Below, piece after piece: positions 29,651-44,533 of a DNA stretch of 64,000 bases; within the stretch, counting starts at the first letter, position 1, and each line of letters opens with the position of its first letter. The notes beneath the pieces are model-generated. The model was not told the DNA's origin. It did no database searches and saw only the letters and a list, made by a program, of their open reading frames with translations. The stretch comes from Myxococcales bacterium (GTDB lineage Bacteria > Myxococcota_A > Polyangia > Haliangiales > Haliangiaceae). Location of the stretch: the NCBI GenBank assembly GCA_016794525.1, contig JAEUJY010000034.1, forward strand, positions 1 to 64,000. The letters run 5' to 3'. The position numbers were made by a program, and so were the translations under genes.

Positions 29651-30193
29651 CTACTTCGCCAGCGTCGCGGTGGTGGCACCCGCGGCCTTCAGCGCGTCGG
29701 TCAGGTCGATCGTCACCTTCTCGGCGACGATCATCATCTCGCAGGTGTCGGCGCTCGGATCGTCGCACACCAGCACCGGCATCGGCTCGCCCTTGGCGTA
29801 GAAGGCCGTGTAGACCGGCTTCTGCGGGCAACCGCCGCCGCGATCACGCTCGAACGACAGCGTCGCACCGTCGATCTTGATCGGCACGTCGGTGACCTTG
29901 TGCATGCCCGCGGGGCATGCCGCGCCCTCGACCACCGCCGTCTTCGCCTGTGCCGGATGCGTCGCCCCCGATCCGGTGCCCGTGCCCGTGCCCGTGCCCG
30001 TGCCCGTGCCCGTGCCCGTGCCCGTGCCCGTGCCCGTGCCCGTACCCGTGCCCGTGCCCGTCCCCGCATCCACGGCGATCGCCGAACCCGTCCCGCTCCC
30101 CGCCTTCCCGCCGTCAACTTGCTTCTTGCTCTTGCATCCGGCGACGGCGACCAGGACCGAGAGACTCATCATCACGCACAGCGTTCGCTTCAT
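29651..30193 (-). CDS. Lipoprotein with Gly-Thr dipeptide repeat (copy A of a duplication)
   Basis: 180 residues from the ATG at 30193. The lipobox is VAVAGC, followed by KSKKQ. Residues about 40-72 are a (GT)n tract encoded by the hexamer array. The C-terminal domain has VVEGAACPAGMHKVTDV, an [15 protein letters not shown] segment, VLVCDDPSADTCEMMI and ends [16 protein letters not shown]. It is a close paralogue of the gene at 31698; the first 20 residues and the tail are nearly the same. The function is unknown; four to five Cys suggest a disulfide-stabilised domain. Confidence 0.8.
   Translation of the reverse strand: MKRTLCVMMSLSVLVAVAGCKSKKQVDGGKAGSGTGSAIAVDAGTGTGTGTGTGTGTGTGTGTGTGTGTGTGTGSGATHPAQAKTAVVEGAACPAGMHKVTDVPIKIDGATLSFERDRGGGCPQKPVYTAFYAKGEPMPVLVCDDPSADTCEMMIVAEKVTIDLTDALKAAGATTATLAK
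29976..30061. repeat. GTGCCC hexanucleotide array, about 14 copies
   Basis: Uninterrupted head-to-tail GTGCCC units except for one GTACCC variant at about 30043. The array lies inside the lipoprotein gene and encodes Gly-Thr dipeptides. Because the unit is six bases, gains or losses of copies keep the reading frame. Confidence 0.95.
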
Positions 30194-31697: not shown

Positions 31698-35100
<3,403 letters not shown>

Positions 35101-37855: not shown

Positions 37856-38650
37856 TCACCGTCCCGCGAACTCACGCACGCACGCGATTGCGTCGCTGTC
37901 GTAGTAGCGGGACTGATCGCAGTAGGTGATCGTGCGGTCGGCGGCGCGCCCCAGCGGGGCCGCCGCGGCCAGGCACGCGCGGGCGTCGCTGTCGTAGTAC
38001 ATGGCGGCGTCGCACGCGGCGACGGCGCTGGCCTCGAGTCGGCCGTCGATCGCCGTGGCGATGCACGCCTGCGCGTCGCTGTCGTAGTACATCGCGGCGT
38101 CGCAGGCGGTGACGACCGCCGCTGCGCGCCAGCCGTCCCGCGCGCCGCGGGCGGCGGTGGCCACGCAGGTGCGTACGTCGCTGTCGTAGTACATGGCGGC
38201 GTCGCAGGCCGCGATCACCGGCGCCGGATCGGCCGGCGCGACCAGCGCCTGCTGCATGCAGGCCAGCGCGTCGCTGTCGTAATACATGGCGGCGTCGCAG
38301 GCCGCGATCGTCGCGATCGGATCGAACGCGGCCTGGGCGGCCACGCCGACGCACGCCGCGGCCGTCGCGCCGTCGTAGATCGCGCGCCGGCAGGCGGCGT
38401 CGATGGCCATCAGGTCGCGGGCCGGACCGTCGTCGTGCCAGCCGCCGGGTCGGTCGTCGTGCCAGCCACCCGGGCGGTGGGGGGCGCCGGGGTTGCTCGG
38501 CCGGTCCGGGCGGCGGTCGTCGCGCCAGCCGCGGTCGTCGCGCCAGCCGCGATCGCGGCGACCGTGACCGCGCCCGCGATCGGCCGCCGCGGGGATCGTG
38601 AGCGCGGCGAGCGCGGCCAGGGCGAGGAGCGTGCGCGTGGAGGTCCGCAT
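37856..38650 (-). CDS. Secreted protein with six CDAAMYYDSD repeats
   Basis: 264 residues from the ATG at 38650. A signal peptide (LLALAALAALTIPAAA) is followed by a basic/aromatic region rich in RGWRDDRGW and GGWHDDRP. Then come six repeats of about 30-35 residues built around (A/T)CDAAMYYDSDAxAC: one degenerate (ACRRAIYDGATAAAC), four near-perfect, and a last TYCDQSRYYDSDAIAC. Each has two Cys ten residues apart, likely a disulfide or a metal-bound loop, with spacers that vary. I recognise no family. It diverges across the palindrome-rich region from the Uma2-like gene. Confidence 0.75.
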   Translation of the reverse strand: MRTSTRTLLALAALAALTIPAAADRGRGHGRRDRGWRDDRGWRDDRRPDRPSNPGAPHRPGGWHDDRPGGWHDDGPARDLMAIDAACRRAIYDGATAAACVGVAAQAAFDPIATIAACDAAMYYDSDALACMQQALVAPADPAPVIAACDAAMYYDSDVRTCVATAARGARDGWRAAAVVTACDAAMYYDSDAQACIATAIDGRLEASAVAACDAAMYYDSDARACLAAAAPLGRAADRTITYCDQSRYYDSDAIACVREFAGR

Positions 38651-38733
38651 GAGCCAACGACGGCGCCAGCGTGCCGGGTATTCACCGGGTAGCGACATGC
38701 GCCTGCGGTGCCACGCGGGATTCGACCACGACG

Positions 38734-38950
38734 TCCACGTGGGACGCCCCGGTCGCTGTCCCACGTGGGACGGCCACGGCAGGAATCAATCGGCTGGTCC
38801 CACGTGGGAGATGAGCTCGACCGGTCGATCCCACGTGGGAGATCGGCTGGTCCCACGTGGGAGATGAGCTCGACCGGGCAGTCCCATGTGGGAGCCCGCG
38901 CGGCGGGTCCCACGTGGGAGATGCGCTCGACCGGGCAGTCCCACGTGGGA
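38734..38950. repeat. Array 1 of the palindrome TCCCACGTGGGA
   Basis: Six exact copies start at 38759, 38798, 38829, 38851, 38908 and 38939. One has CATGTG instead of CACGTG (38882), one lacks a C (38734), and a decayed one lies at 38711. Copies are spaced 22-39 bp, and the linker GATGAGCTCGACCGGGCAG or a close variant recurs three times, so the array grew by duplication of larger units. It differs in linkers from array 2 at 43465, so only the palindrome is conserved. Confidence 0.95.
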
Positions 38951-39126: not shown

Positions 39127-39756
39127 ATGTTGCAGGTCATCGATGAGCGGAGCCCGGCGGGCGAGATCCGGCTGCGGCCGTTGCGGCGCGTGGTGTTCGA
39201 GCGCCTGTGTCAGTGCGGCGGCAGCGACGCCACCGCGCTCGAGCTCGTGTGCGGCGCCGTCGTCGATCGCCGCGACGACGATCCCGAGCGTGCGGGGGTG
39301 GTCGCGCACGTCGCCGCGCGGCTGCGCGCGCAGGCCGGACCGGCGGGCCGGATCGCGGTCCGCGCCGCCTGGCCGCTCGACGACTACTCGATGCCGCGGC
39401 CGGACGTGCGCGTGGCAGCGCTCGGCGATCACTGCGAGCTTGGCCTGGGCACGACGCCGCTGGTGATCGAGGTCGCGCGCCGGCACGGCGGCGATACCGC
39501 TCGCCATGAGCTGTTCGCGCGGGCGCCGCTGGCCGAGTACTGGCAAGTCGATCTGGCGGCCGGGGTGATCGACGCGTGGCGCGGGCGCGACGCGAGGTTC
39601 GGCGGCTGGGCGACGGTCACGCGCTATCGCCGGGGCGACATCGCGATCCACGCCACGCGGCCGGCGCTGGCGTTGACGGTCGACGAGGTCGTGTCGCGTG
39701 TGCAGGGGCCTCGGCGCTTGCGGTCGGGGCCCGGCTCTGCGACACCCTCCCCATGA
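39127..39756 (+). CDS. Uma2-family (DUF820) PD-(D/E)XK-like protein
   Basis: 209 residues. The Uma2 layout is visible: DDYSMPRPDVRVA (the PD), then TPLVIEVARRHGG (the E-V strand), then HELFARAPLAEYWQVDLAAG, corresponding to the K-x3-YA-x2-GV-EYWIVD segment. The position usually holding Lys before the YA appears to be His/Arg here, so catalytic activity is uncertain. The N-terminal 60 residues are atypical. Uma2 proteins are restriction-endonuclease-like and their biological role is not settled. Its stop overlaps the aldolase start (ATGA). Confidence 0.65.
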   Translation: MLQVIDERSPAGEIRLRPLRRVVFERLCQCGGSDATALELVCGAVVDRRDDDPERAGVVAHVAARLRAQAGPAGRIAVRAAWPLDDYSMPRPDVRVAALGDHCELGLGTTPLVIEVARRHGGDTARHELFARAPLAEYWQVDLAAGVIDAWRGRDARFGGWATVTRYRRGDIAIHATRPALALTVDEVVSRVQGPRRLRSGPGSATPSP

Positions 39757-42390: not shown

Positions 42391-43449
42391 ATGGCTCGCG
42401 CGAGACTCATCGGCAGGATGGACGAGCCCGTCACCGAGCGCCTGGTCGATGTCGACGGGGTGCCGGTGCGCGTGCGCACCGAACGGCAGCGCGTCGCGGT
42501 CACGGAAGGCGAACAGTGGAACGATGGGGTCAACGTCGTGGCCTCGAGCCCGGGCTGCGGCGAGCTGACGATCGACGTCGTCGCCGGAGCGCGCTGGATG
42601 GGCTTCGGCAAGAACCGCGTCGTCACCGGGGTGGCGGCGTTCGACGATCAGTACGTCGTCACCACCAGCGACGAGCGCATCGCGCCGTGGTGGTTCGGGC
42701 CCGCCGAGGCCAAGGCGATGGCCGCGACCTACGACCCGACGGCGCTGATGCCGTTCGCGCTGCGCCTGGCGCCGGGGCTGATCCAGCTGGTCGCGGGCGG
42801 CGTCACCGAGCTCGCGCTGCCGATCTCCTGGCAAGACCGCGACTCGCCGCGCTACCAGCACTACATCGCGCATGGCGCGCCGCCGATGGCGGTGACCCAC
42901 ATCGACGAAGCGATCCGGGCCGCCGGGTTCATCGCCGGGCGCAACCTGCGGCTCGCCGCGCGCTGGCGCGACCTGCTCGCGCCCCACGGGCTGGTTGCGG
43001 CGGGCCCGGCGTGGCGCACGGACGATCAATACGCGCTGGTGGTCGAGCGGGGGCGAGCGAAGATCATCGTCGACTTCCCGTGGCGGGTCGCGGCGCTGTC
43101 GACCACCGGCCTGCGGACGCGGCTCGCGGTGCGATGGCCGGTAGACGGCGCGGCGGGCATCTGGCCGCGCGCCTGGTCACGCCGCCAGCGGCCGCGCATC
43201 GACGGCAACCGATCGCTCGACCTGGCCGCCCCGTGGCACGGCGTGGCGCGCGGCGCCGTCCTCGACGGGCTGCAGGACATCGGGGGCGCGCTGGCTGCGG
43301 TGGGGGTCGACTGGCTCCTGGTCGGCGACGGGCTGCTCGCGATCGGCTGGGAACGCATCGAGGAAGATGCCGCCAAGCTGGCGGGCGCGCTCGGCTTGCT
43401 GGCGCGATGGGCGGAGCAAGCGGCCGCTACCAGCGGTCCGTATCGGTAG
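42391..43449 (+). CDS. Hypothetical protein
   Basis: 352 residues from the ATG at 42391; ATG 42418 is also possible, and the frame continues upstream over the divergent gene. There is no signal peptide or membrane helix. The sequence has many Trp-containing strands (RWMGFGKNRVVTGVAAFDDQYVVTTSDER split by turns, WWFGPAEAKAMAATYDP, RAKIIVDFPWRVAALS). The family is not recognised. It is followed by palindrome array 2. Confidence 0.55.
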   Translation: MARARLIGRMDEPVTERLVDVDGVPVRVRTERQRVAVTEGEQWNDGVNVVASSPGCGELTIDVVAGARWMGFGKNRVVTGVAAFDDQYVVTTSDERIAPWWFGPAEAKAMAATYDPTALMPFALRLAPGLIQLVAGGVTELALPISWQDRDSPRYQHYIAHGAPPMAVTHIDEAIRAAGFIAGRNLRLAARWRDLLAPHGLVAAGPAWRTDDQYALVVERGRAKIIVDFPWRVAALSTTGLRTRLAVRWPVDGAAGIWPRAWSRRQRPRIDGNRSLDLAAPWHGVARGAVLDGLQDIGGALAAVGVDWLLVGDGLLAIGWERIEEDAAKLAGALGLLARWAEQAAATSGPYR

Positions 43450-43464: not shown

Positions 43465-43673
43465 TCCCACGTGGGACATCCGGAGCGCCTCCCACGTGGG
43501 ACATCCCGCTGCCTCCCACGTGGGACATTCGGAGTGCCTCCCACGTGGGACATCCCGCTGCCTCCCACGTGGGACATCCGGAGTGCCTCCCACGTGGGAC
43601 ATCCGGCGCGCCTCCCACGTGGGACATCCCGCTGCCTCCCACGTGGGACATCCGGAGTGCCTCCCACGTGGGA
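43465..43673. repeat. Array 2: nine exact copies of TCCCACGTGGGA at 24-25 bp spacing
   Basis: Starts are at 43465, 43490, 43514, 43539, 43563, 43588, 43613, 43637 and 43662. Linkers are of two kinds: CATCCGGAGTGCC-like (13 bp) and CATCCCGCTGCC (12 bp, three identical copies), largely alternating. The 12-bp palindrome shows no mismatch in nine copies while linkers vary. The array occupies the 259 bp between a hypothetical gene and the aldo/keto reductase gene. Confidence 0.97.
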
Positions 43674-43708: not shown

Positions 43709-44533
43709 ATGGCCCCGCCCGTCCCCGTCGACATGCCGCCCATCCTCTACGGCACGGCGTGGAAGGAAGAGCGCACGCAGGCGCTGACGCTCCAGGCGCT
43801 GGCGGCGGGGTACCGCGGCATCGACACCGCCAACCAGCGCAAGCACTACGTCGAGGCGGCGGTCGGCGAGGCGATCGCCGCCAGCGGCGTGCCCCGCGGC
43901 GAGCTGTTCCTGCAGACCAAGTTCACGTACCAGCGCGGCCAGGACGATCGGCTGCCGTACGATCCCGCGGCGCCGCTCCCCGATCAGGTCGCGCAGTCGT
44001 TCGCCAGCTCGTGCAGCCACCTCGGGACCGACGTGATCGACAGCTACGTCCTCCACGGCCCGTGGGGCGCGGTGGGCTGGAGCGTCGAGGATCGCGCGGT
44101 CTGGGCCGCGATGGAGGCGCTGCACGCCGCGGGGCGCATCCGTTACCTCGGTGTGTCCAACGTCGCGGCGGCACAGCTCGAGGAGCTGCTCGCCGTGGCG
44201 CGCGTGCCGCCGACGTTCGTCCAGAACCGCTGCTACGCGCGCACCGGCTGGGATCGCGACGTGCGCGCGGCGTGCGCGCGCGCCGGCGTGGTCTACCAGG
44301 GCTTCTCGCTGCTGACCGCCAACCAGCGCGAGGTGCGCCACCCGATGCTCGCGGCGATCGGCCGCCGCCACGGGCTGGAGCCGGGGCCGACGGTGTTCGC
44401 GTTCGCGCGGACGGTCGGCATGCTGCCGCTCACCGGCTCGAGCACGCGCGCGCACCTCGACGCGGACCTGGCGGCGGTCGCCGTCACGCTGACCTCGTCC
44501 GAGGTCGACACGGTCGTGCGCATCGGCGGCTGA
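43709..44533 (+). CDS. Aldo/keto reductase
   Basis: 274 residues: AAGYRGIDTANQRKHYVEAAVGEAI split at the loop carries Asp and Tyr, QTKF the Lys and VLHGPWG the His of the catalytic tetrad. ALHAAGRIRYLGVSN is the conserved family segment, FVQNRCYAR and LTGSSTRAHLDADL the later ones. It is an NADPH-dependent carbonyl reductase of unknown substrate. Only 36 bp separate its start from palindrome array 2, so that array is likely within or next to its promoter. Confidence 0.8.
   Translation: MAPPVPVDMPPILYGTAWKEERTQALTLQALAAGYRGIDTANQRKHYVEAAVGEAIAASGVPRGELFLQTKFTYQRGQDDRLPYDPAAPLPDQVAQSFASSCSHLGTDVIDSYVLHGPWGAVGWSVEDRAVWAAMEALHAAGRIRYLGVSNVAAAQLEELLAVARVPPTFVQNRCYARTGWDRDVRAACARAGVVYQGFSLLTANQREVRHPMLAAIGRRHGLEPGPTVFAFARTVGMLPLTGSSTRAHLDADLAAVAVTLTSSEVDTVVRIGG

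Follow-up and report, generated by a model that had tools for sequence, protein, structure and literature searches.

The target of ParB is parS, a palindrome centred on CACGTG. In M. xanthus this site reads TGTTCCACGTGGAACG (PMC3899335), and a ParB-CTPase fold fused to an HNH nuclease has been described (PMC12704722). The repeats of REP/RAYT systems are imperfect stem-loops of 20–40 bp with a GTAG or CGTC tag at one end (PMC2817692, PMC3733652). REP13E12 of Mycobacterium is a member of the DUF222-HNH (13E12) family (PMC10589994); the genes of this family are repetitive, and in the literature searched we found no known target or role for them, nor any paper linking them to CACGTG palindromes or to a ParB-like domain. 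Finally, the phage homing endonuclease SegB, which is proposed to drive tandem amplification, provides a precedent for nuclease-driven arrays (PMC13096335).

The repeat described here fits best among REP-like palindromic repeat families, but its partner gene is of a new kind. Like REP and BIME elements, it consists of hundreds of short extragenic palindromes in one genome that are clustered, species-specific and mostly 3’ of genes, and, as in REP/BIME-RAYT systems, a multicopy enzyme gene carries related palindromes. However, the partner is a predicted ParB-DBD-HNH protein and not an HUH/Y1 transposase, the palindrome is a perfect one of 12 bp whose linkers are copied from the locus and whose units run head-to-tail, and the sites lie inside the enzyme gene, whereas RAYT repeats flank theirs. 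The repeat most likely originates from, and spreads through, multiplying HNH nuclease-like genes (ParB-like/DUF222, HNH and often RuvA_C).

The window, which is the whole 64,000 nucleotide stretch of Myxococcales DNA that was analysed, contains two tandem arrays of the palindrome TCCCACGTGGGA (Table 1). An earlier note had reported the nine perfect copies of array B, and all nine starts are exact (43465, 43490, 43514, 43539, 43563, 43588, 43613, 43637 and 43662), with linkers of 13, 12, 13, 12, 13, 13, 12 and 13 bp in order; read on the minus strand, the unit is ggATG-TCCCACGTGGGA-ggc. The array is real, but it does not stand alone. Array A, which the note missed, lies in the same window, with the 12-mer variants TGCCACGCGGGA, GTCCACGTGGGA and TCCCATGTGGGA and with linkers (gatgagctcgaccgg...) unrelated to those of array B. 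The window holds 19 matches to the 12-mer at two or fewer mismatches versus 3.9 expected, and none of 100 shuffles reaches 19; an Rfam search of the window gave no match. The stop codon of the gene upstream of array B is 15 bp before the array, and the ATG of the downstream gene follows the last copy after 35 bases. Tandem tracts of the hexamer GTGCCC are also present in the window, at 29976–30066 and 32008–32166.

Table 1. Palindrome arrays of the window and their neighbouring genes.
Feature	Coordinates	Strand	Description
Array B	43465..43673	.	Nine exact TCCCACGTGGGA, pitch 24–25 bp
Array A	38709..38950	.	Six exact TCCCACGTGGGA and three variants
Upstream neighbour of array B	42418..43449	+	343-aa protein, no Pfam match
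Downstream neighbour of array B	43709..44533	+	Aldo/keto reductase, Pfam PF00248, E 7.5e-29
Neighbour of array A	37856..38650	-	Secreted-type protein, divergent
Other-side neighbour of array A	39127..39756	+	Predicted gene, divergent

A scan of the genome and its relatives for clusters of the 12-mer, as the earlier note had proposed, reveals strong clustering. The whole genome (G000; 9.8 Mb, 177 contigs) contains 348 exact copies of TCCCACGTGGGA and none of the reversed control; by chance a 12-mer would be expected about 0.04 times per 0.6 Mb. Six other genomes of its genus contain 0–1 copies each, and therefore the increase is specific to the Myxococcales species studied; other genomes of the family have 0–15. 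Of the 348 copies, 333 were located by means of pattern subsets and fetched stretches, and 304 of the fetched copies form 39 clusters of 2–17 copies spread over about 30 contigs. Gene prediction from codon usage, with a simple finder, puts 37 of the 39 clusters outside genes in a sequence that is 89 % coding. Two clusters (L096 and L109) include the tails of HNH genes, leaving about 37 arrays outside, and 35 of the 39 are intergenic once these two tails are counted. This genome thus shows the high-copy extragenic palindrome that characterizes REP/BIME elements. A literature search for the 12-mer returned only an unrelated herpesvirus paper. Beside the arrays at L106, L113, L131, L141 and L142, near contig ends, a common sequence, CAACTACC(C/T)TG..., is possibly another repeat.

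Array B should be read as one member of this dispersed family, not as one gene’s local protein-binding site. The proposal that it is a protein-binding array holds in that a DNA-binding partner is plausible, given the ParB-like fold predicted in the associated HNH proteins (below), but not in its local form. Operator arrays of a local regulator acting on neighbouring genes, such as the aldo/keto reductase, would fit the better conservation of palindromes than linkers and the position of array B just before a start codon, yet the genomic distribution makes this explanation very improbable. Arrays favour convergent gaps (12/28 versus 91/465, P 0.007), copies are mostly on the 3’ sides of genes, and few arrays are in divergent gaps (2/28, a trend that is not significant, P 0.14). 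The neighbours of arrays are mutually unrelated. Furthermore, the three closest homologues found for the reductase (57–60 % identity; in G031, G002 and G003) have no upstream CACGTG array and a different upstream gene. They lend no support to a tie with this gene, and as upstream synteny has disappeared in them, they provide no clean empty site.

Comparison of the arrays with each other reveals how they grow. Linkers are near-copies of each other inside one array and unrelated between arrays; common to the arrays are 17 bp only, ATC-TCCCACGTGGGA-CG (ATC in 27 and CG in 32 of the 39). Clearly, the arrays grow by local tandem duplication. The unique spacers of a CRISPR array, which was considered and rejected, are not seen, as the linkers within an array are near-copies. 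The earlier claim that the palindrome is kept better than the linker is borne out across 33 arrays: anchored on linkers, palindromes carry 0.045 mismatches per base and linkers 0.097, a ratio that is approximate because the arrays were found through exact palindromes, and 156 of 215 palindromes are exact versus 63 of 215 linkers. By contrast, the pitch of about 24.6 bp, from which the note expected bound proteins to spiral around the DNA, is not a fixed architecture; the modal pitch is 24–26 bp in 17 of the 33 arrays and 28–52 bp in the others, and in these 33 arrays no array-wide helical phase was found beyond the 24–26 cluster.

Local growth of this kind is also what neutral minisatellites would produce, if the palindrome promoted slippage or template switching and the arrays lengthened by tandem duplication with no dedicated spreading enzyme. 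The likeness of linkers inside an array and their unlikeness between arrays, the other tandem tracts that adjoin several arrays, and the mostly intergenic sites all fit such an origin. Nevertheless, it is unlikely. The 12-mer and the 17 bp unit are identical at about 37 separate places, far above the chance expectation given above (about 0.04 copies per 0.6 Mb); slippage seeds no new places, and relatives remain at 0–1 copies; and although their linkers are unrelated, 17 of 33 arrays have a modal pitch of 24–26 bp. Tracts of the hexamers GGAGTC/GGAGCC adjoin several palindrome arrays (L101, L111, L118 and L123), and the array at L125:6418-6814 interleaves TCCCACGTGGGA with another motif, ACCCACGTGGGC, at a double pitch of 52 bp.

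A second kind of TCCCACGTGGGA place is found inside multicopy HNH genes, where pairs of copies are 459–495 bp apart, in frame, flanking the HNH domain on both sides and coding SHVG. The family architecture is DUF222, then HNH, then often RuvA_C, the same DUF222-then-HNH order in repetitive, multicopy genes as in the REP13E12 family. An N-terminal profile identifies about 24 loci in G000, and recent copies are 79–86 % identical to the query. The HNH domain is present in eight of nine members and RuvA_C in five of nine; Pfam DUF222 matches 17 members out of 33 when E up to 1 is allowed, the best at 7.6e-8, with the G000 member below the curated cut-off. The HNH His and Cys columns are invariant. 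In the G000 copies read, K, T or Q stands in place of the motif Asn (SNL in relatives; alignment A1 columns 340–352), and this change may mean weak or nicking activity, or binding without cutting. In most G000 copies the C-terminal linker site reads CCG-TCCCACGTGGGA-GAT, and the array 17-mer is the reverse complement of this in-gene C-terminal site, CCGTCCCACGTGGGAGAT. The positions listed for the 12-mer (333 of 348 placed) include neither C113:62 kb nor C78:171 kb, where older paralogues lie, and viral contigs have no paired 12-mer. In the full-length protein model, both SHVG stretches sit in low-confidence linkers.

The association between HNH genes and CACGTG palindromes extends to other genera. 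Samples of 326–366 kb each were taken from G002, G009 and G031, which have many HNH copies, and from G006, which has none. Each of the first three genomes, where sampling favoured HNH loci, has an enriched CACGTG-centred palindrome; no such enrichment was found in 364 kb of G006. The density of CCACGTGG per kb of HNH genes is 2.15 in G000, 0.98 in G002, 1.36 in G009 and 0.67 in G031, compared with 0.026–0.035 in the other predicted genes of the same genomes, a 22–73 fold difference across four genomes and three genera. In each of the four genomes the count in HNH genes exceeds all 1000 protein-keeping codon shuffles, although the HNH paralogues are related, so that their counts are not independent and the independent events are far fewer than the genes. 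Independently of these counts, six of 33 exact 12-mer loci in other genomes of the family are within 1.5 kb of an HNH-family gene where 0.11 are expected (P 2e-9).

The in-gene sites, mostly palindromes of 8–20 bp, keep to three recurrent positions: N-terminal, mid-linker and C-terminal. Most are read in frame 0 (HVG), those of the G002 mid linker and the G031 C-terminus in frame 1 (PRG), and those of one G005 gene and one G009 gene in frame 2. Since sites in this wider set are read in all three frames, DNA rather than peptide is kept, at least in those genes; in G009, the protein could be what maintains the in-frame HVG sites. Despite their many HNH copies, G002, G009 and G031 have no such arrays in the sampled 326–366 kb. 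The direction from gene to array would be the simpler one, because in-gene palindromes are shared across genera and arrays are not. Two further arrangements are observed in other genomes. In G015, GGGCCACGTGGGCC-type repeats, another species-specific CACGTG palindrome, flank an HNH-family gene (L162:673-766 and 2687-2965), and in G024 each tandem unit, about 148 bp long, joins TCCCACGTGGGA to another palindrome, ATTCCGCGGAAT (L146:6083-6570, and L147).

Structure prediction suggests how an HNH protein might read such a site. The N-terminal domain was folded alone, as the full-length AlphaFold model is poor beyond residue 210, and a 33-sequence alignment gave a model with pLDDT 93.4. Its best Foldseek matches are the DNA-binding domains of ParB, Spo0J and Noc (probability 0.93–1.00, with modest E-values of 0.02–0.5), and the full-protein model returns the same list of structural matches. 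Helical folds can reach middling Z scores by chance. In VIA-align, twelve ParB/Noc/Spo0J entries score Z 8.4–10.6 with rmsd 1.9–2.8 over 95–103 residues, KorB and one more ParB score 6.1–7.1, and unrelated chains score 5.8 and below; the best 15 structure rows are all ParB, Noc, Spo0J or KorB (Z 6.1–10.6, rmsd 1.9–3.1). Sequence comparison points the same way: hhalign aligns the domain to ParB in register but more weakly than structure does (E 1.4e-4, probability 53 %), and with E up to 1 allowed, eight of the 33 members have Pfam HTH_ParB among their matches. We therefore predict a ParB/Noc DNA-binding fold for the N-terminal domain of the family. The ParB CTPase domain was not recognised in the HNH protein, and the HNH domain comes after the DNA-binding part instead. 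Like the ParB-CTPase-HNH fusion, the protein would join a ParB-related domain to an HNH nuclease, but unlike that fusion its ParB part would be the DNA-binding domain (PMC12704722).

The predicted fold and the CACGTG-centred palindrome resemble ParB-parS and Noc-NBS, and the host’s own ParB could in principle be the reader, with the arrays serving as accessory parS-like sites that organise the chromosome. G000 has five canonical parS sites, TGTTCCACGTGGAACA, in one cluster, from which TCCCACGTGGGA differs by one symmetric change per half. A single TCCCACGTGGGA lies inside this cluster (C79:125.9–126.9 kb); no other intergenic copy was found standing alone, away from arrays. On C63, parB has an array about 7 kb away. 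However, TCCCACGTGGGA is not the parS consensus TGTTNCACGTGNAACA (T to C and A to G), and the symmetric change falls at an outer position, in the conserved part of parS. Instead of clustering near parAB or oriC, the dozens of arrays are scattered across many contigs, and they are not conserved. The single ParB of G000 has a recognition helix like that of relatives without arrays, and the five canonical parS are kept. We consider a role as accessory sites for ParB quite improbable. A ParB paralogue was rejected as the reader, as each genome searched has at most one HTH_ParB protein.

The best reading of the arrays, whose chances we judge to be about even, treats them as parS-like sites targeted by a ParB-DBD-HNH nuclease that is selfish or homing-like; the sites would have been copied out of the nuclease genes into intergenic DNA and then amplified in tandem. 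The strongest parts of the case are the family-wide association of gene and palindrome, which is shown by computation, and the ParB-like identity of the domain, which is predicted from its modelled fold. We hypothesize that the nuclease acts on the palindromes as follows. The HNH protein would bind the palindrome and would cleave or nick both it and CACGTG-like sites in other places; with an intact site as template, repair would copy about 17 bp into new places; and repeated cutting with misaligned repair could turn each new site and the DNA flanking it into a tandem array. Such arrays would survive mostly between genes, on the genes’ 3’ sides. A homing gene normally splits its own target. The HNH gene does not; it contains intact sites, and this counts against the homing reading. 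The older paralogues outside the listed 12-mer positions, and the lack of arrays in the samples of G002, G009 and G031, also weigh against it. As with SegB, a sequence-specific nuclease is proposed to drive tandem duplication near its sites; unlike SegB, the sites are intact inside the gene, the amplified units are 24–50 bp, and the nuclease action is only proposed (PMC13096335).

This nuclease-linked reading would offer DUF222-HNH genes a concrete target sequence and a domain identity. It may even define a new class of selfish element, in which a ParB-like domain fused to an HNH nuclease recognises a parS-like palindrome inside its own gene and seeds and tandemly amplifies a 17 bp site genome-wide, the first target for DUF222/13E12 proteins; we put this forward tentatively, with the balance leaning somewhat against it. 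If true, short palindromes would have a nuclease-linked route, besides RAYT transposases, for colonising bacterial genomes, and a ParB-type reading head would have been re-used on a nuclease.

Mobilisation of REP/BIME-type elements by the Y1 (RAYT or TIRYT) transposases of G000 is the remaining alternative to such a nuclease. More than 100 extragenic, species-specific palindromes mostly 3’ of genes are typical of REPs (PMC2817692, PMC3733652), G000 has 17 Y1_Tnp matches, and the array unit has CG before TC on one side only, a CGTC-like tag. Moreover, a Y1_Tnp match lies 183 bp away from the sole TCCCACGTGGGA of G003 (L024:1501 / C547:14728), and GGCCCACGTGGGCGG is found close to the start of the gene. 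Nevertheless, none of the 17 G000 matches is within 10 kb of any listed 12-mer, so no rayt gene flanked by cognate repeats is seen among them. The three Y1 loci read (L300:2314-2893, L308:651-1186 and L314:2159-2653) contain no CACGTG at all and adjoin their own stretch of roughly 500 bp with long inverted repeats. The palindrome arms of the arrays are 6 bp only, and the units run head-to-tail. Transposase mobilisation is thus a doubtful explanation, with a small chance of being correct.

Arrays or groups of TCCCACGTGGGA are also seen in metagenome-assembled genomes (MAGs). Bacteroidales MAGs contain arrays with units of about 21 bp that carry TCCCACGTGGGA or variants such as TCTCACGTGAGA (L035:2905-3183, and L036-L039), and no HNH relative was found in these stretches. 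A Sedimentisphaerales MAG has four copies of TCCCACGTGGGA in 260 bp, mostly as the parS-like TGTCCCACGTGGGACA (L034:6351-6606).
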